Origin: Veillonella seminalis
Lineage (GTDB): Bacteria > Bacillota > Negativicutes > Veillonellales > Veillonellaceae
NCBI RefSeq assembly: GCF_003992065.1
Contig: NZ_RQUZ01000012.1
Location: 1 to 64,000, forward strand
Reading direction: 5' to 3'
Length of the DNA: 64,000 nt
Under the pieces are notes generated by a model. It made no database searches, was not told the origin of the DNA, and saw only the letters and a list, made by a program, of their open reading frames with translations. Shown in pieces: positions 18,335 through 62,260 of the stretch. A program made the position numbers and the translations under genes. Within the stretch, counting starts at the first letter, position 1. Every line of letters begins with the position of its first letter.

Positions 18335-19218
18335 TAGGCTAAAGCCTCCTTGCCGTGGGTTTTAGTAATTAAGGAAAGCCAATTGTGGCCGGCTGCTTTG
18401 ATTTCTTCTTGCAACGTCAATGCTTCTCGAGCTGCATCGAGGTAAACGACCATGGTTGGACCGCTACCGGTCATGATGGTGGTATAGCCGCGGTCGGTGA
18501 AAAACTTCTTGCAACTTTGAAGTTCCGGATGAAGCGGGAATATCAGTTCTTCAAAGGTATTGCCACTTACTTTCATAGCCTCTTTGATGTCGCCGGTGTG
18601 AATCGCTTTTTCAACTTCATCGATAGTGGTACTGTCGAATTGGGACTCATTGTTAAAACGGCTGTAAGCGGCTGTGGTGGATATAGATAATTCCGGCTTT
18701 ACTACGAGTAACCAATGCGGTTTACCGGTCGGTAAATAGCTTAATTCTTCGCCGCGTCCTTTGCCGCGAGCGGTGCCGCCTCTCATGAGAAACGGTACAT
18801 CGGAGCCTAAACCGTTGGCTAAAGTCATGAGCTCGTCATCGGTAAGACGTAAGTCCCAGAATTTATTGAGTCCGAGAAGCATTGCGGCTGCATCGGAACT
18901 GCCTCCGCCGAGACCGGCTGCGGGCGGTACACGTTTTAATAAGTGAATGGCGCCGCCGGTAGTGCAACCCGTATAGGTTTGCACGGCTCGTAAAGCTTTC
19001 ATAGCTAAGTTTGTTTCGTCATAGGCCATCATGTCGTTCATGTACTGCGGTAATTCCGGTGCGGAACCGGAGAAAACAACCGAATGATGTTTGGCAAAAT
19101 AAATGGAGTCTCCCAAGTAAATGGATTGAAAAATAGTATCGATATTGTGATACCCGTCATCGCGCTTATTGAGAATAGCTAAACCGATATTAATTTTGCT
19201 GAAGCTGAGTTGCTCCAT
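18334..19218 (-). CDS. ispE: 4-diphosphocytidyl-2-C-methyl-D-erythritol kinase
   Basis: This enzyme phosphorylates CDP-methylerythritol at the 2-OH in the MEP isoprenoid pathway (EC 2.7.1.148). The 294-residue length is normal for the GHMP kinase family. The N-terminus SFSKINIGLAILNKRDDGYH carries the catalytic Lys region. The ATP loop is PPAAGLGGGSSDAAA near residues 100-114. The third GHMP motif, IMTGSGPTMVV, is near residue 245. The start has AAGGAGG upstream. It is co-transcribed with the GntR gene. Undecaprenyl phosphate from this pathway feeds the envelope glycan genes elsewhere in the window. Confidence 0.96.
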   Translation of the reverse strand: MEQLSFSKINIGLAILNKRDDGYHNIDTIFQSIYLGDSIYFAKHHSVVFSGSAPELPQYMNDMMAYDETNLAMKALRAVQTYTGCTTGGAIHLLKRVPPAAGLGGGSSDAAAMLLGLNKFWDLRLTDDELMTLANGLGSDVPFLMRGGTARGKGRGEELSYLPTGKPHWLLVVKPELSISTTAAYSRFNNESQFDSTTIDEVEKAIHTGDIKEAMKVSGNTFEELIFPLHPELQSCKKFFTDRGYTTIMTGSGPTMVVYLDAAREALTLQEEIKAAGHNWLSLITKTHGKEALA

Positions 19219-39250: not shown

Positions 39251-39322
39251 TAAAAAAATATGTCCTCTCGCACCGCTGGGTTGCATGCAACAAGGCGATG
39301 TTCCGGGGACATATTTTTTATT
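39251..39322 (+). other. Nested hairpin element, type A, complete copy
   Basis: Outer arms TAAAAAAATATGTCC (39251-39265) and GGACATATTTTTTA (from 39307) pair almost perfectly and end in a T-run. Inside, CACCGCT can pair with GGCGATG (one mismatch) around the palindrome GTTGCATGCAAC. It terminates like a Rho-independent site but has an unusually elaborate loop. Its right half recurs at 41951-41984. Confidence 0.65.
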
Positions 39323-39386: not shown

Positions 39387-39406
39387 TTTCTTTCTTTCTT
39401 TCTTTC
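39387..39406 (+). repeat. Tetranucleotide repeat (TTTC)5
   Basis: Five perfect TTTC units flanked by further T/C-rich sequence. Intergenic, between two hairpin elements. Confidence 0.85.
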
Positions 39407-39416
39407 TTTTCCTGCG

Positions 39417-39445
39417 GAAATTATAAAATATTGGGCGTAACCGGA
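39417..39445 (+). repeat. Left arm of inverted repeat around the first type B hairpin
   Basis: Pairs with the reverse complement of 39645-39673, with about 24 of 29 positions matching. Two blocks are exact: ATTATAAAATAT and GCGTAACCGGA. The right arm covers the last codons and stop of the HxlR gene. Confidence 0.75.
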
Positions 39446-39473
39446 GTATTGCTTAAGAATAGATAATGTATGT

Positions 39474-39550
39474 AAAGGGTCCCACGTCTTCTGAAGCATC
39501 CCTTTTGCTACGTGTAGCCAGGGTGCAAGGAAGGCGTGGGGACCCTTTAT
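39474..39550. ncRNA. Nested hairpin element, type B, copy 1 (candidate structured RNA)
   Basis: The outer stem AAAGGGTCCCACG (39474-39486) pairs with CGTGGGGACCCTTT (39535-39548; one bulged G). The middle layer is TCTT/AAGG. The inner stem is GCATCCCT/AGGGTGC with one bulged U. The apical hairpin is GCTAC-GT-GTAGC. The core from 39492 to 39534 is identical to the core of the copy at 42330-42403, while the outer arms differ in sequence but stay paired. T-rich ends on both strands suggest it can terminate transcription. No coding frame runs through it. Confidence 0.6.
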
Positions 39551-39644
39551 TGTTTTAATTAAGATATTTCGGATTACACCAAAGCTTTTTAAATACTTAA
39601 CTCATATAAAAGATATCCAATGCTTTTATATGGGGATTAGTGAT

Positions 39645-39673
39645 TTCCGGTTACGCTTGATATTTTATAATCT
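39645..39673 (-). repeat. Right arm of inverted repeat around the first type B hairpin
   Basis: Reverse complement of 39417-39445 with about five mismatches. It includes the HxlR stop codon at 39665-39667. A further hairpin (ATATAAAAG/CTTTTATAT) lies at about 39604-39631. Confidence 0.75.
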
Positions 39674-40036
39674 TAGTCCATCATCTTCCGGAGCCGTGAC
39701 TTCTACGGTTTCGCCTGCGGCGCGACGTGCTTCTATCAATTCGGCACCCCAGTCTGACATTTCGCCTAAAATGCGGCGCAGGCTTTGACCGCGTTCGCTT
39801 AGGCTGTATTCTACGCGCGGTGGTTCTTCGTTATATACAGTGCGGGTGATGATGCCCGCATCTTCTAATTCGCGAAGTTGGAGGGTGAGCACACGTTGCG
39901 AGATATTAGGCATCAATCGTTTTAATTCGCCGGTGCGCAAGGTGCCGTGACCTAAATGGCAGAGAATGGATACTTTCCATTTACCGGTAATAGCTTCTAA
40001 CGTAGCCTCAATGGCCAAATGATATAAATTTCGCAA
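39665..40036 (-). CDS. HxlR-family transcriptional regulator
   Basis: A winged-helix regulator of about 123 residues. The family core is EATLEAITGKWKVSILCHLG, then LKRLMPNISQRVLTLQLRELEDAGI (recognition helix) and the wing PPRVEYSLSERG. The longest frame begins at TTG 40054, but that codon sits on GGAGGTGA (40052-40045), which must be the ribosome binding site. I therefore place the start at TTG 40036. The Cys common just before the first core motif in redox-sensing HxlR proteins is Ala here (LAIEAT). It is divergent from the MFS pseudogene at 40297 and probably once controlled it. Confidence 0.85.
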   Translation of the reverse strand: MRNLYHLAIEATLEAITGKWKVSILCHLGHGTLRTGELKRLMPNISQRVLTLQLRELEDAGIITRTVYNEEPPRVEYSLSERGQSLRRILGEMSDWGAELIEARRAAGETVEVTAPEDDGLRL

Positions 40037-40296
40037 AAAATTTTTCACCTCCAAAATATTGAATATACCTAAATTGTAACATTTTTGTTCCTATAATACA
40101 AAAAAGTGCCGTCTTTTCAGTAATGATACTATGCTCTATAATTGCAATTGTTACAAGTTCTGAATACGAATTTGTATGAAAATAAATTAATTTGAGACTA
40201 CTGCATTGATGTTAAATCTCAAAGTAGTTTTCATGATTTAGTAATATTTTACTAAAAATTAGAGTATAAAAAGTGATGGGAGGATTTTGATATTAT

Positions 40297-41413
40297 ATGG
40301 ATAAAACAAAAATGGCGCTGATTGCGCTGGCAATGATGTTTTTCGGGACGGGCATAACGGAATTTATTCCGGTAGGGCTCTTGCCGATGTTTTCACAAGA
40401 ATTTGGCGTAAGCTTGTTTGAAGCGGGTTCGACTGTTTCACTTTATGCATTCGGTGTGGCCGTGGGTGGCGTGATTTTGACGTCCTTAACGGCACAAGTA
40501 AATTGTAAACGGCTATTGGTATTTGCTGTGGCTTTATTTTTAATCGGCCATGTATTTACCGTGATGGCTACAACCTTTATTTGGTTGTTGATTGGCCGAA
40601 TCATGGCAGCAGCCGCTCATGGCTTATTTTTTGCCATTGCTTCTTCCGTGGCAGTCAGCTTGGTGGCACCCAATAAAAGTGCCGGTGCGATTGCCTTTAT
40701 TTTTAGCGGTTTTACAATTGCTACAGCCTTTGCAGTGCCACTGGGAACCTACCTTAGCGAGTTTTTAAGTTGGCGCGTATCATTCTGGGGTGTAGTAGTT
40801 GTAGAGGCGTTTACTTTGTGGCTTAATTTGCGATATATTCCTAATAATGCAGGGCATATAACGAGTAAGCCGAGCTGGCATAATCAATGGAAATTGATTA
40901 CCACACCACAAATCATTTTGCCATTAGTGATTACAGTGTTAGGTTATGGCAGAACGTTTGCTACGTTTACCTATTTGTCGCCGATTTTGCAAAATATTAC
41001 AAAAATCAGTGCATCCGCGGTTAGCATTGTGCTCATCATGTATGGTGTAATGATTGCTATAGGTAATTACTTGGGTGGCCGTTTCGGAAACGGCCGCTAT
41101 TATTACGGTAGCAGGCATGGGCTTGTTAGCCTTTATGAGCGTGCCAATGTTACAGGCCAATATTATGTTGTTGGCAAAACGCTATGTGCCAAGTGCCGTT
41201 GATTTAGCGTCGTCTTTAAACATTGCCGGTTTTAGTGGCGGCATTATGCTGGGGGCTATTTTAGGCGGTGTAGTTATTGATTTTGTCGGCTTGGCTTATA
41301 CCCCGTTAGCAGCAGCCTTCATGGTAGGTCTCAGCGTAGTTTTGACTATGGTAGCCATAGCTTGGCAAAAAGCACCGGCAGACACTATCGAGTGCGAAGC
41401 TTTAGTTAACTAA
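40297..41413 (+). pseudogene. Broken MFS drug/sugar efflux transporter
   Basis: A 12-helix major facilitator of the AraJ/YdhP-like group, now in two frames. The first part (40297 to about 41095) starts MDKTKMALIALAMMFFGTGI after GGGAGG and covers helices 1 to about 9, ending NYLGGRFGNG. The rest is in another frame (AAIITVAGMGLLAFMSVPML to the stop at 41413). Intact relatives have roughly 20-25 more residues at this join, so the lesion looks like a deletion that removed most of one helix and shifted the frame. The join lies in a perfect 19-nt palindrome with an 8-bp stem (41077-41095, GGCCGTTT-CGG-AAACGGCC). Lies 260 bp from the HxlR gene. Confidence 0.8.
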
Positions 41414-41501
41414 TCGTTGAAAAATGGTTATAATTCATAAGTTTATGTTTCATTATGTTGATTTCTTTTTTTGTGAAAACATGTGGAAAGGATGGTATAT
41501 C

Positions 41502-41912
41502 ATGAAAGAAATTCAAGTAAAAGATTTACAGTTAAACCCTATGACACTTATTTCTGACGGCTGGATGTTGATTACGGCAGGCAATGAAAAGAACGGCTTT
41601 AACACAATGACTGCCAGTTGGGGGCATTTAGGCGCGATTTGGGGGACCAATAAGGGCTTGCCTACGGCTACCGTTTATATCCGTCCGCATCGCTATACTA
41701 AAGAATTCGTTGATCGTGAAGATGAATTTACCTTGTCCTTTTTCAACAATGACTACAAACGCCAGTTGGCTTATTTAGGCACACACTCCGGTCGTGATGA
41801 AGACAAAGTGGCAAAAATGGGTTTATCCCCTGGATTCGTAGATAACACAACCTATTTCAAAGAAGCCGATGCTCTGAGAACATCTTTTTTATTGGAGAAA
41901 CTATCATCTTAA
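41502..41912 (+). pseudogene. Truncated flavin reductase-like (flavoredoxin) protein
   Basis: FMN-binding split-barrel family protein; start ATG 41502 with AAAGGA upstream. Typical segments are NTMTASWGHLGAIWG, ATVYIRPHRYTKEFVD and YLGTHSGRDEDKVA. Relatives are about 185-190 residues; this one stops at 136. Family similarity ends at TYFKEADAL and is followed by about 11 unrelated residues. The C-terminal part that completes the dimer and flavin site is missing. A half copy of the type A hairpin lies 39 bp after the stop, so the deletion probably took both the gene end and the left half of that hairpin. Confidence 0.78.
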
Positions 41913-41950
41913 TTTAATAGATAGTTTTATAACATCACAGGAGAAGCAAA

Positions 41951-41984
41951 CAACAAGGCAATGTTCCAAGGTCATATTTTTTAT
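41951..41984 (+). repeat. Half copy of the type A hairpin element
   Basis: 30 of 34 bases match 39288-39321, from CAACAAGGC to the T-run. The left arm is absent, so no hairpin of the same kind can form. Confidence 0.75.
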
Positions 41985-42110
41985 CAGAGCGTTTATAAGA
42001 GCAAGTGAGCGGTTAGGATATTTCAATTTTAGTCATGTCCTACACACAGTATACTTTGAGTATTATTTTAATAACAGCGTAAAGTAGTTTTCTGTATGAT
42101 AAGCCCCACC

Positions 42111-42180
42111 GGAAAAAATATTTCCTCGGAGCAGTGCTTTAGCGTGAAACGATCGCACTGTGAGAGGAAATCTTTTTTCC
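42111..42180. other. Nested hairpin element, third type
   Basis: Outer arms GGAAAAAATATTTCCTC (42111-42127) and GAGGAAATCTTTTTTCC (42164-42180) pair over most of their length. Inside is CAGTGC/GCACTG around an A/G-rich loop. The layout resembles types A and B, but the core sequence differs. It is terminator-like on both strands. Confidence 0.6.
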
Positions 42181-42198
42181 CTTCTTTTTTTCTCTCTC

Positions 42199-42310
42199 CC
42201 TCCATTTTTGATTACTTAAAGGTTTTTTAGAGCTCTACATAAGAAAAGGGCCGATATTTTCTGAGATGCTGTATGGCAGTAAAATATTGGGTTTGCCCGA
42301 TTTGCACTAT
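42199..42310 (+). pseudogene. Remnant of a second pepD 3' end, inverted relative to pepD
   Basis: On the plus strand 42202-42231 reads ATTTTTGATTACTTAAAGGT and on, encoding IFDYLKVF before a stop. This matches the C-terminus of PepD (IFDYLKVLLKELK) encoded on the minus strand at 42480. The match continues past the stop through AAGGGCCGATAT and TTTGCCCGA. It is the left arm of an imperfect inverted repeat with 42418-42525. Either a convergent pepD paralogue was lost, or the 3' end was copied in inverted orientation. Confidence 0.72.
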
Positions 42311-42329
42311 GATGTACTAAAGTAATATA

Positions 42330-42403
42330 AAAAGCCCCCATGCCTTTTGAAGCATCCCTTTTGCTACGTGTAGCCAGGGTGCAAGGAAGGTATGGGGGCT
42401 TTT
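42330..42403. ncRNA. Nested hairpin element, type B, copy 2 (candidate structured RNA)
   Basis: The outer stem AAAAGCCCCCATGCC (42330-42344) pairs with GGTATGGGGGCTTTT (42389-42403), 15 bp with one G-U. The core from TGAAGCATCCC to GCAAGGAAGG is identical to copy 1 at 39492-39534. Compared with copy 1, several stem positions differ on both strands so that pairing is kept (C-G to T-A, T-G to C-G). It is U-rich on both strands and lies between the pepD remnant and pepD. Confidence 0.6.
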
Positions 42404-42417
42404 ATTAATTTACGCCA

Positions 42418-42525
42418 TAATAATTCGGGCAAGCCAAATATTTAAGCCTATCAGTTTAAAGAAAGATATCGGCCCTTTCCTATTTGAGCTCTTTCAATAA
42501 AACTTTTAAGTAATCAAAAATATGC
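42418..42525 (-). repeat. Right arm of inverted repeat around the second type B hairpin
   Basis: Imperfect reverse complement of 42199-42310. It covers the last 15 or so codons of pepD and its 3' flank. The best blocks are TTTTTGATTACTTAAA, GAGCTC, AAGGGCCGATAT and GCCCGA. Confidence 0.72.
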
Positions 42526-43916
42526 TCTACTGATGGCAAATGCAATCTTTCTTGAGGGGTATGGGCATGAGTGATCGTAGGCCCGAAGCTGATCATTTGG
42601 GTATTTGGCATAACGGCTTTCAAGAGACCGCATTCAAGACCTGCATGGATAGCGGTTACTTTTGGTTTCTGGCCGGTTACTTTTTCATAAATAGCGATAG
42701 CCTGTTCTTCTAAAGGACTGCCCGGTTCGTATTCCCAAGCCGGATAGGAGCCGGCGATTTTTGAAGGAAGGCCTAAGGTAGAAGCTAAGAGATGGATTTT
42801 CTTGGTTAAGAAGTCCATGGAGCTTTCGGAGAGGCTGCGAATGGAAATCAACAAATGAATGGTATGTTCTGTTTCTTCCACGATAGCGATGTTGTTACTT
42901 GTTTCAACAAGGCCTTCCAAGGAATGGTTCATGGCAAAAACGCCGTTTGGCGCGAGGTATAAGAAGGTGAGTAAAGATTCGGCTGTGTCACCACCGTAAA
43001 CGGTATCAGGTAATTCAGCGTCGCTTACGAGGATGTTAATATTTTCATCTTGAGGGGTGAATTCACCGCGATACGCTTTCATTTTAGCCTGAATCCAAGT
43101 AGTAATCGGTTTTACATCGGATTCTTTTACCAAAATGGTTGCGGAACCGACGCGTGGAATGGCGTTATGTTTAGTACCGCCGGTGAAGGAGGCCAATTGA
43201 TAATTGTATTGAGCGGCCAATTCATATAAAAGACGACCGAGAATTTGGTTGCCGTTGGCGCGTTCTTTATGAATTTCAATGCCGGAGTGACCGCCTAAGA
43301 AACCGTCCAAGGTTAATTTCAACGCATGGGTGAATTGGGAGTCACGATTATCGCGAAGCCGAGGAATTTCAACATCTACGCGGCAACCGCCGGCGCAACT
43401 GACTACGAATTCGCCTTCTACTTCAGTGTCGATATTGAGTAGATATTGACCGTGAGTCTGACCTTCTTTAATAGCCAAAGCACCGTCCATACCGGTTTCT
43501 TCGGATGTAGTGAAAAGACATTCCAACGGACCGTGTTCGATGCTGTCGGAATCGAGGACAGCCAGGGACATGGCAACGGCGATACCGTTATCGGCACCCA
43601 AGGTTGTTTCGTTGGCGTGGAGCCATTCGCCTTCTTCAATATGTTCAATCGGATCGGTCAAGAAATCGTGAGTTGAAGCGTCACTTTTTTCACAAACCAT
43701 ATCCATGTGACCTTGCAAAATAATGCTGGGGCGGTTTTCGAAACCCGGCGTAGCCGCTTTACGGATAAGTACGTTATTGGCTTCGTCCTGTTCTACTTCA
43801 AGATTACGCGCTTTGGCAAATTCAACAAGCCAGTCGCTGACAGCTTTTTCATTGCCGGAACCACGAGGAATTTGATTCATTGCTTTAAAAAATTCTAATA
43901 CTTTTTGTGCACTCAT
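42480..43916 (-). CDS. pepD: Aminoacyl-histidine dipeptidase (PepD, M20 family)
   Basis: A cytoplasmic dinuclear zinc dipeptidase of 478 residues that cleaves Xaa-His and other dipeptides. Zinc and catalytic motifs of the M20C group are present: ILQGHMDMV near residue 66, TTLGADNGIAVAM near residue 113, and TSEETGMDGA near residue 146 with the catalytic Glu. The lid domain lies at about 200-380, and the C-terminal SFGPTITHAHTPQERLHLPS supplies the last ligand. GGGGTG precedes the ATG. It appears to be transcribed alone towards the inverted-repeat region at its 3' end. Confidence 0.94.
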   Translation of the reverse strand: MSAQKVLEFFKAMNQIPRGSGNEKAVSDWLVEFAKARNLEVEQDEANNVLIRKAATPGFENRPSIILQGHMDMVCEKSDASTHDFLTDPIEHIEEGEWLHANETTLGADNGIAVAMSLAVLDSDSIEHGPLECLFTTSEETGMDGALAIKEGQTHGQYLLNIDTEVEGEFVVSCAGGCRVDVEIPRLRDNRDSQFTHALKLTLDGFLGGHSGIEIHKERANGNQILGRLLYELAAQYNYQLASFTGGTKHNAIPRVGSATILVKESDVKPITTWIQAKMKAYRGEFTPQDENINILVSDAELPDTVYGGDTAESLLTFLYLAPNGVFAMNHSLEGLVETSNNIAIVEETEHTIHLLISIRSLSESSMDFLTKKIHLLASTLGLPSKIAGSYPAWEYEPGSPLEEQAIAIYEKVTGQKPKVTAIHAGLECGLLKAVMPNTQMISFGPTITHAHTPQERLHLPSVEHIFDYLKVLLKELK

Positions 43917-61911: not shown

Positions 61912-62089
61912 AAATGGACACAGAGTGTTTATTGAGAGCTATATTCAGAAGTAGTGCTGAAGGCCTTTCAGAAGCATTTTGAGACACTTTCGGTGAATTC
62001 TGAACAGTAGTTTACAAGGTCCCGAGAGTATGCTCATAACTGTGAGACTGTCGCAACTTAAGTAAAGGAGGTTACCTAATTCGTAAAGG

Positions 62090-62260
62090 CGAATAGCGCA
62101 GGCACTGAACGGAGACAGCCGATTCAGTAGACGAGGTAGAGGAGTATCGAAACATCAGCGGATGCCTCTCGGCCGGCTTCAGTCGTTATATAAGTTACAA
62201 TGTCTATCGGTGACGATGAGAACAAAAGACTTATACGAAGCAATTGGAGTAGTCTGTTTT
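62090..62260 (+). ncRNA. glmS ribozyme
   Basis: A self-cleaving riboswitch that uses glucosamine 6-phosphate as cofactor and lowers GlmS synthesis when that sugar is plentiful. The conserved start AGCGC is at 62094-62098, so cleavage should fall between A62094 and G62095. The core motifs GACGAGG (62130-62136), ATCGAA (62146-62151) and GCGGATGCCTC (62158-62168) match known glmS ribozymes. The 3' domain extends towards the ribosome binding site at 62261-62268. It lies directly upstream of glmS, as expected. Confidence 0.92.

Follow-up and report, generated by a model that had tools for sequence, protein, structure and literature searches.

REP/RAYT elements are short intergenic palindromes. Intrinsic bidirectional terminators are stems flanked by A-rich and T-rich stretches and lie at the 3′ ends of genes. 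Dispersed repeats with a common hairpin fold have been described as the SLS families (PMC2267715), and the repetitive hairpin elements of sponge mitochondria occur as several dispersed intergenic copies (PMC2800124). Template switching has been proposed as a mechanism for RNA stems, and the hairpins attributed to it show multi-base compensatory changes with the loop kept (Monttinen and Loytynoja 2022, PMC8794818).

The hairpins considered here, from a window of 64,000 nt of Veillonella seminalis DNA, have a likeness to each of these in the features just named. However, they differ from intrinsic terminators in that the loop is large and encloses a conserved hairpin and, at many loci, in added palindromic shells outside the stem. 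They differ from the SLS families in having a conserved tip on arms that vary through two-sided changes, and in being nested in larger palindromes; in the accessible part of PMC2267715 no description of conserved-tip, variable-arm, nested copies was found. In the sponge elements, as far as the accessible text goes, it is the stems that are conserved and the loops that vary, the reverse of the situation here, and the present hairpins again differ in lying inside larger palindromes. The template-switch account, in the part available, concerns RNA genes, whereas the present palindromes are intergenic, reach hundreds of bp, take in the ends of genes and have extra shells. Among the matches listed, which lie mostly outside the subscription literature, neither this family nor nested terminator palindromes in Veillonella were reported.

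Two hairpins of a small repeat family

The two copies in the window (Table 1) have a 43-nt core without a difference, and outer arms that are unlike between them with complementarity retained, as the initial annotation had read from the sequence. The nested fold that it drew is predicted for the + strand of both, but its GCTAC-GT-GTAGC tip is not: the prediction has 4 bp closing a loop of 4 nt instead of 5 bp around GT, and a bulged U within the inner stem. The + strand folds have −47.5 kcal/mol (z −7.20) for copy 1 and −45.4 kcal/mol (z −7.62) for copy 2, with none of 200 dinucleotide shuffles equally good for either, and the − strand folds are weaker (−39.7 kcal/mol, z −7.42, and −37.5, z −5.86, respectively). 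The loop of copy 2 is 40 nt long and that of the F9 hairpin nearby, which has another recurrent tip, 36 nt.

Table 1. Positions of the hairpins and of the palindrome arms around them in the window
Feature	Position	Strand	Remarks
Third F1-family member, diverged	39252..39319	−	R2 59.0 bits
Outer shell of copy 1, left arm	39420..39445	.	Pairs with 39646-39671; L015 local score 37, 100-shuffle maximum 28
Hairpin copy 1, family F1	39474..39551	+	Outer stem; conserved 43 nt at 39492-39534; 3′ flank rich in T
Outer shell of copy 1, right arm	39646..39671	.	Overlaps 3′ end of HxlR-like ORF (39665-40054, −)
F9 hairpin, other recurrent tip	42111..42180	+	Tip GGAGCAGTGCTTTAGCGTGAAACGATCGCACTGTGA; counterparts in G002 and G006
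Nested quasi-palindrome, copy 2 central	42204..42521	.	Score 112
Left outermost arm	42204..42235	.	Inverted copy of pepD-like ORF 3′ end (ORF 42480-43916, −)
Hairpin copy 2, family F1	42330..42406	+	R2 83.3 bits
Right outermost arm, the pepD-like ORF 3′ coding end	42486..42521	−	

Both hairpins belong to a small family of repeats, F1, present mainly in one Veillonella branch. The own genome (G000) has 10 matches to profile R2 at E ≤ 1 (150 of 340 candidates were scored), among which copy 1 ranks second at 76.4 bits. More copies in related genomes had been proposed as a check by the initial annotation, and profile searches found them in all seven genomes of the genus (at least one each), which probably represent a branch of Veillonella. 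Outside the genus profile R1 matched none of 23 genomes and R2 two of 53 (G008 clearly, G059 marginally); one sister-genus genome has two F1 matches. A wide distribution was considered and rejected. The exact pattern GAAGCGACYTTTN{8,26}AGGAGCAA, which misses diverged tips, gave 19 stretches in a genome-contig collection from which the own or very near genomes were possibly omitted; in two, both from Veillonella, the arms are complementary (scores 40 and 37), and the remaining 17 score at most 16 and are therefore taken as chance. With a looser text pattern for the tip there were 13 rows, and L150:19174 alone among them appears genuine. Mean pairwise identity is 0.67 in the tip versus 0.42 in the arms. 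An apparent change of tip orientation at the malic-enzyme locus was rejected, because the three loci compared were in unlike orientations.

No known RNA family was recognised by the initial annotation, and with the window and five loci searched no Rfam model matches the hairpins at its gathering score. The sole such match in the window is glmS (62084-62245). The five loci (the two copies plus three more) gave 10 matches at E ≤ 5, all under the gathering score, the best being MIR2646 (E 4.9e-8, 49 bits against a gathering score of 245). Most of these matches are of long hairpins to microRNA and small-RNA models, and they are taken for palindromes scoring against hairpin models. The suggestion that the hairpins belong to a small-RNA family finds no pointer to a discrete small RNA in the sequence-level evidence.

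Nested palindromes and coordinated change of their arms

Larger inverted repeats that enclose both hairpins had not been noticed in the initial annotation. The looser palindrome around copy 1 (39420-39671) folds at −99.8 kcal/mol, the minimum in 60 shuffles being −65.0. That centred on copy 2 has arms of 143 and 135 bp with 114 identical positions around a 40-nt gap, and folds at −143.5 kcal/mol (minimum in 60 shuffles, −76.5). Its left outermost arm matches the end of the pepD-like ORF at 31 of 32 aligned bases with two gaps (alignment score 51, against a null maximum of 23). At 18 of 30 loci a shell beyond the hairpin itself scores above the maximum of 100 shuffles and at 12 it does not, L037 and L038 having been left out as opposite-strand duplicates. 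The nested palindromes span 146–600 bp, in regions picked for holding copies and with 600 the limit of the method. With runs of N, which give false palindromes, left out, palindromes of score at least 50 are few and occur outside the genus as well: five in 464 kb of G000 (the window's included), six in 400 kb of G006 and one in 195 kb of G001, and in further samples one in 197.5 kb of G009 and two in 400 kb of G011. In 129 kb made up of 17 stretches from other organisms there was none.

The two-sided base changes first seen between the two copies are present too in family alignments that include both, and the covariation signal is above both the shuffled and the slid controls. In A3 (30 rows) 94.4% of cells are paired and the covariation score is 0.710, versus 0.230 for the shuffled control and no more than 0.146 for the slid one; in A4 (37 rows) the values are 94.3%, 0.766, 0.231 and at most 0.162. 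Both alignments are of chosen loci with E-value cuts against overlaps and opposite-strand duplicates, by which weaker matches were lost too, and A2 (89 rows, with overlapping loci and opposite-strand duplicates in it) was kept out of all counts. All 16 pairs of the outer stem have two-sided changes, and in A4 the inner helices likewise covary. In the outer helix there are 21 G-U versus 7 A-C cells, but 12 of the 21 G-U cells belong to the two pairs nearest the tip, and thus there is no clear preference in the pairing for single-strand RNA over a DNA-level palindrome.

At one orthologous locus the tip is a different one. In G006 the orthologous pepD palindrome is capped by an F9 hairpin, which at 61 of 66 positions is identical to another F9 hairpin lying at a distance of 266 bp. 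Remnants of F1 there score barely above null against the G000 copy (31, null 28; and 30, null 29.5), and against G006's own F1 one is above (26 vs 24) and one below (21 vs 25.5). Elsewhere in G006 (L124:6404-6728) the arms are doubled, with outer–inner alignment scores of 78.5 on the left and 75.5 on the right (maximum of 200 null values, 42.5, from the left arm only), and the arrangement resembles a hairpin enclosed by its own copy. However, palindrome turnover is not universal, as the neighbouring L124:6162-6398 is conserved, with 198 of 233 positions (85%) identical to its G000 counterpart.

Probable termination, proposed arm copying and the alternatives

For 34 of 37 hairpins the nearest ORF is turned towards them with its 3′ end, and therefore the likeliest function of the F1 hairpins, judged from position and sequence, would be that of a bidirectional intrinsic terminator with a conserved structured tip. 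Where ORFs lie on both sides (n = 36), 18 are convergent, 18 codirectional and none divergent; two of the 37 hairpins are inside a predicted ORF (107 or 140 aa). The bidirectional terminator with a specific loop that the initial annotation had offered thus agrees with the position at gene 3′ ends, half between convergent ORFs, but its other reading, a structured RNA element, is not clearly favoured by the pairing. The T-tracts are modest (means 6.2 and 6.8 T per 12 nt). A pattern-based terminator scan lists none of these hairpins, its loop limit of 8 nt excluding them. Among scored terminator hairpins, loops of at least 20 nt occur in 32 of 152 rows in G000, 0 of 38 in G001, a sample from the same genus, and 6 of 64 in G009. 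This count includes 10 rows from L040/L043 (chosen as copy-holding) and 3 of the window's own, has some hairpins twice, once per strand, and is not an enrichment test.

In 14 pairs judged orthologous, which are not independent, there are 50 two-sided changes (27 transversions, 22 transitions, 1 other) versus 19 one-sided, with 153 unchanged, and the loop is retained. This excess of two-sided changes, many of them transversions, points to arm-to-arm template switching, and so does the left outermost arm around copy 2, as a copy of the pepD-like end; the coordinated change of palindrome halves between species suggests that DNA is rewritten by one arm being copied onto the other. The interpretation that we consider somewhat better supported than its denial is that F1 hairpins are clade-restricted, likely terminators, and the innermost shells of palindromes that evolve largely by arm copying. 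The hairpins, with their conserved structured tip, which may have a role of its own, would stop transcription both ways at gene 3′ ends and form the innermost shells of nested quasi-palindromes. Fold-back would prime template switching during replication, and copying from arm to arm would carry substitutions, duplicated stretches and fragments of adjacent gene ends over to the facing arm in mirror image; occasionally a whole hairpin may be copied into the tip of another, giving an extra shell.

The recurrence of one tip at unrelated loci is unexplained by template switching alone. A more tentative extension, for which we would claim perhaps a minority chance, is that the hairpin is self-propagating, with template switching primed at the tip carrying it, transposase-free, both to the opposite arm and to other hairpins, whose tips it would enter.

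Similar tips at several loci with different arms could also reflect a non-autonomous mobile element (MITE-like or REP-like), a trans-acting transposase with a preference for hairpin tips producing nested insertions. The F9 hairpin at the tip of the G006 pepD palindrome would fit, as would the flanking inverted repeats that the 30-locus shell test gave at some loci, those of the CTAAATAATT..CGAGC type being common to the copies in G000 C8, G002 C13 and G006 C2. However, no target-site duplication (from unsystematic inspection) or exact insertion boundary is established, the own genome has just its ten matches, and in a search with PF01797, the RAYT-type Y1 transposase family, one of the seven genus genomes (G002) matched and the own genome did not. 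This sets F1 apart from REP/RAYT, whose hairpins carry a GTAG/GGAG tetranucleotide at the foot and which was rejected for the own genome. A mobile element in general appears unlikely.

Rather less likely still is a sequence-specific RNA element, whose tip would bind a protein or ligand and modulate termination or mRNA 3′ stability, in the manner of terminator-like riboswitches. The better conservation of the tip than of the arms, and the covariation in the inner helices as well, would be in keeping with it, and in the accessible part of PMC8632094 conserved tips of terminator-shaped stems are exploited as aptamers. Nevertheless, the hairpins are located at gene 3′ ends, the nearest ORF is on the other strand from the tip as drawn in 28 of 37 cases (same strand in 9), and outside the two innermost pairs G-U versus A-C cells give no clear strand preference. 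A downstream ORF on the core strand is present at only 3 of 30 loci (genes without systematic annotation), and a same-orientation, recurring class of downstream gene, as for a terminator-type riboswitch, is not seen.

A DNA-level element (cruciform, single-strand recombination or uptake site) would account for pairing that is kept with unclear strand preference, and for variable arms with a more conserved tip, but is very improbable. DNA uptake sequences, in the accessible part of PMC2346458, number hundreds to thousands of copies per genome. The ten own-genome matches, with 150 of 340 candidates scored, are too few for that. Inverted chimaeras occur in some sequencing libraries, but assembly artefact or chance similarity is scarcely credible, being contradicted because orthologues are present, with diverged palindromes at the same locus in separate assemblies, and folds and covariation above shuffles.

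Implications for covariation and for the spread of repeats

Covariation is commonly taken as proof of selected RNA structure. Here complementary arms span hundreds of bp of intergenic DNA plus a gene end, and many of the changes in the outer stem are transversions on both sides, so that much of the covariation signal may be the work of a mutational process. If it is, template-switch mutagenesis could be studied comparatively at these loci as a natural test bed, and RNA discovery by covariation would call for caution. Recurrent tips, and the signs of hairpins lodged in hairpins, raise the question of a transposase-free spread of small bacterial repeats. Were the self-propagating reading true, Russian-doll palindromes would be built at gene ends, and terminators would be a niche in which hairpins are tolerated or useful.

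The hairpin family and its distribution

The two hairpins of the window do share an identical 43-nt core, as the initial annotation had it, and their arms, unlike between the two, are complementary within each. The + strand folds at −47.5 and −45.4 kcal/mol and none of 200 shuffles is as good. That they are not recognised as a familiar RNA family also stands: no Rfam family reaches its gathering score at the two hairpins in the window, nor does any at five loci examined separately.

In the model of this family (F1) the outer stem has 16 pairs and is followed inwards by a small, mostly purine internal loop; the inner stem often has GA opposite GA, and the tip region combines a U-rich side with a small hairpin. 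In two alignments, A4 (37 rows) and A3 (30 rows), whose rows are related to one another and whose fitting to the model works in its favour, 94.3% of 941 cells (96.9% in the outer helix) and 94.4% of cells are paired, and two-sided changes occur in 26/27 and 24/27 pairs respectively. The covariation first proposed from two copies extends to these sets. The score is 0.766 for A4 against 0.231 (sd 0.014) when shuffled and at most 0.162 when slid, and 0.710 for A3 against 0.230 when shuffled; on one measure, further pair types in A4, 25 of 500 shuffles reach the observed value. The tip is the better conserved part, with a mean pairwise identity of 0.67 against 0.42 over the first 11 arm columns.

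Further copies were found in relatives. A model from six copies (R1, from alignment A1, one letter of the sixth copy being wrong) has matches at E up to 1 in all seven genomes of the genus and in none of 23 others. A model from 30 copies (R2) has at least 10 matches in the own genome at E up to 1 and, at E up to 0.05, matches 9 of 60 genomes, including all seven of the genus (at least 1 to 9 each, at least 8 in the own genome); 84 of the 167–509 candidates per genome were scored in this search, so every count is a minimum and a genome without matches is not shown to lack the family. Two matches in a sister-genus genome, G008 (E 1.2e-7 and 1.4e-6), have the same architecture on inspection. One in G059 (E 0.011) is a plain hairpin and was taken for chance. 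Two exact-pattern matches in named genomes are in Veillonella ratti ATCC 17746 and Veillonella sp. KGMB01456, and we infer that the clade carrying the family is a Veillonella branch.

Nested palindromes around the hairpins

When the left flank of each copy is aligned to its reverse-complemented right flank, many F1 copies prove to be the centres of nested inverted repeats. The flank score beyond the hairpin is above the maximum of 100 shuffles in 18 of 30 loci and not above it in 12, the 30 including orthologues and so not being independent cases. The window together with 14 regions chosen for holding copies has 25 palindromes of score ≥50, spanning 146–600 bp (600 being the limit of the method), with a gap of 17–42 nt in 23 and of 396–397 nt in two; the F1 tip is absent from some.

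In samples not chosen for hits, the window excepted, palindromes of this score number 5 in 464 kb of the own genome, G000 (one being the window's), 6 in 400 kb of G006 and 1 in 195 kb of G001 (both same genus), 1 in 197.5 kb of G009, 2 in 400 kb of G011 (sister genus) and 0 in 129 kb (17 stretches) of other organisms. At score ≥40 the corresponding numbers are 12, 11, 4, 2, 6 and 2, with none in block-shuffled G000. Such palindromes are therefore rare, and present also in a sister genus with other tips. Recurrent tips besides F1 include F5 (GTCTTTTTTGCTTGCAAAACCAAG and variants) and F9, and nested palindromes with tips of their own may be wider than the F1 family.

Hairpins, palindromes and other features, in window coordinates or by locus (L)
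Feature	Coordinates	Observations
CTTT tandem repeat	39390-39410	short; adjoins the copy 1 outer shell; length may vary
Looser palindrome, copy 1	39420-39671	fold −99.8 kcal/mol, shuffle minimum −65.0
Hairpin, copy 1 (+)	39474-39551	
MFS-type transporter	40297-41413	reads as two ORFs, of 301 and 112 aa, that overlap in different frames; by eye against L006, middle part apparently missing
Flavin-reductase-like ORF	41424-41912	by eye, C-terminus differs from L005 and L006 counterparts
Nested palindrome, copy 2 at centre	42204-42521	arms of 143 and 135 bp matching at 114 positions; fold −143.5 kcal/mol, best of 60 shuffles −76.5
Hairpin, copy 2 (+)	42330-42406	
glmS ribozyme/riboswitch	62084-62245	Rfam, 87.4 bits
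Two family members in tandem, own genome (C4)	L165:5275-5455	113 bp start to start; arms similar
Palindromes with a common tip, G011	L150:12090-12334 and L150:19033-19343	tip CGACTTAGGTCACTATGGAG
Palindromes with same 33-nt tip, G006	L119:18106-18294 and 18924-19125	opposite orientations, ~0.6 kb apart
Inverted repeat between these two, G006	L119:18372-18908	

Changing arms and differing tips

Fourteen pairs were judged orthologous by neighbouring ORFs, shakily for a few (e.g. L044:6850 with L047:6572). Across their outer helices 153 base pairs are unchanged, 22 show two-sided transitions, 27 two-sided transversions, 1 another two-sided change and 19 one-sided changes, in a set where pairs share members and the differences within the malic-enzyme trio enter two times. 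A two-sided transversion cannot pass through a standard paired intermediate, so copying in mirror image explains it more simply than two mutations arising separately. Turnover is not fast everywhere: the G006 palindrome L124:6162-6398, which lies beside L124:6404-6728 (below), is identical to its G000 counterpart at 198 of 233 positions.

At the pepD locus the left outermost arm of the window palindrome is an inverted copy of the end of the pepD-like ORF (31/32 aligned bases, two gaps). Across three species the outermost shell is kept, the inner shells align poorly, and the tip is F1 in G000 and G002 and an F9 hairpin in G006. The latter is 61/66 identical to an F9 hairpin 266 bp away, and the sequence flanking it weakly resembles F1 hairpin halves, scoring 31 and 30 with the G000 copy (null maxima 28 and 29.5) and 26 and 21 with G006's own F1 copy (24 and 25.5).

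Also in G006, L124:6404-6728 has doubled arms, outer against inner scoring 78.5 on the left and 75.5 on the right (null maximum 42.5, for left arms only). At the equivalent position G000 carries, between flanks 89% and 76% identical, a palindrome with this type of tip; the palindrome's sequence matches at 149 of 172 aligned bases, little above shuffles (129–140 of 170–176). Tandem duplication of one arm, then mirroring, could give these doubled arms; nested insertion accounts directly both for them and for the G006 pepD tip.

Gene ends and a possible mechanism

With ORFs called mechanically, the nearest of at least 100 aa has its 3′ end facing the hairpin in 34/37 cases, and where ORFs lie on both sides (36 cases) they converge in 18, run in one direction in 18 and diverge in none. 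Two of the 37 hairpins are inside a predicted ORF (107 or 140 aa), and in 28 the tip as drawn lies on the other strand from the nearest ORF. Gene names (pepD, flavin reductase, HxlR, malic enzyme, uvrA, metY, MFS transporter) were read off translations and are presumptive. An F1 hairpin follows the flavin-reductase-like gene in G002 and G006, with no match there in the window by model search. The MFS-type transporter gene is, from its reading frames, probably broken in the window.

Earlier papers already describe repeated stem-loop families (PMC2267715), stems of terminator shape whose tips are conserved (PMC8632094) and template-switch hairpins (PMC8794818). A conserved tip combined with mirrored arms and nested shells was not found among the literature matches listed. 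Template switching has been proposed for RNA stems (PMC8794818), and constant tips within a locus fit it, since it can keep the loop. The most likely reading, on sequence comparison, is of a putative bidirectional terminator whose DNA palindrome would be rewritten by template switching during replication, and whose hairpin would occasionally be copied into the tip of another. For one tip to recur at unrelated loci, spread or a selected function is required.
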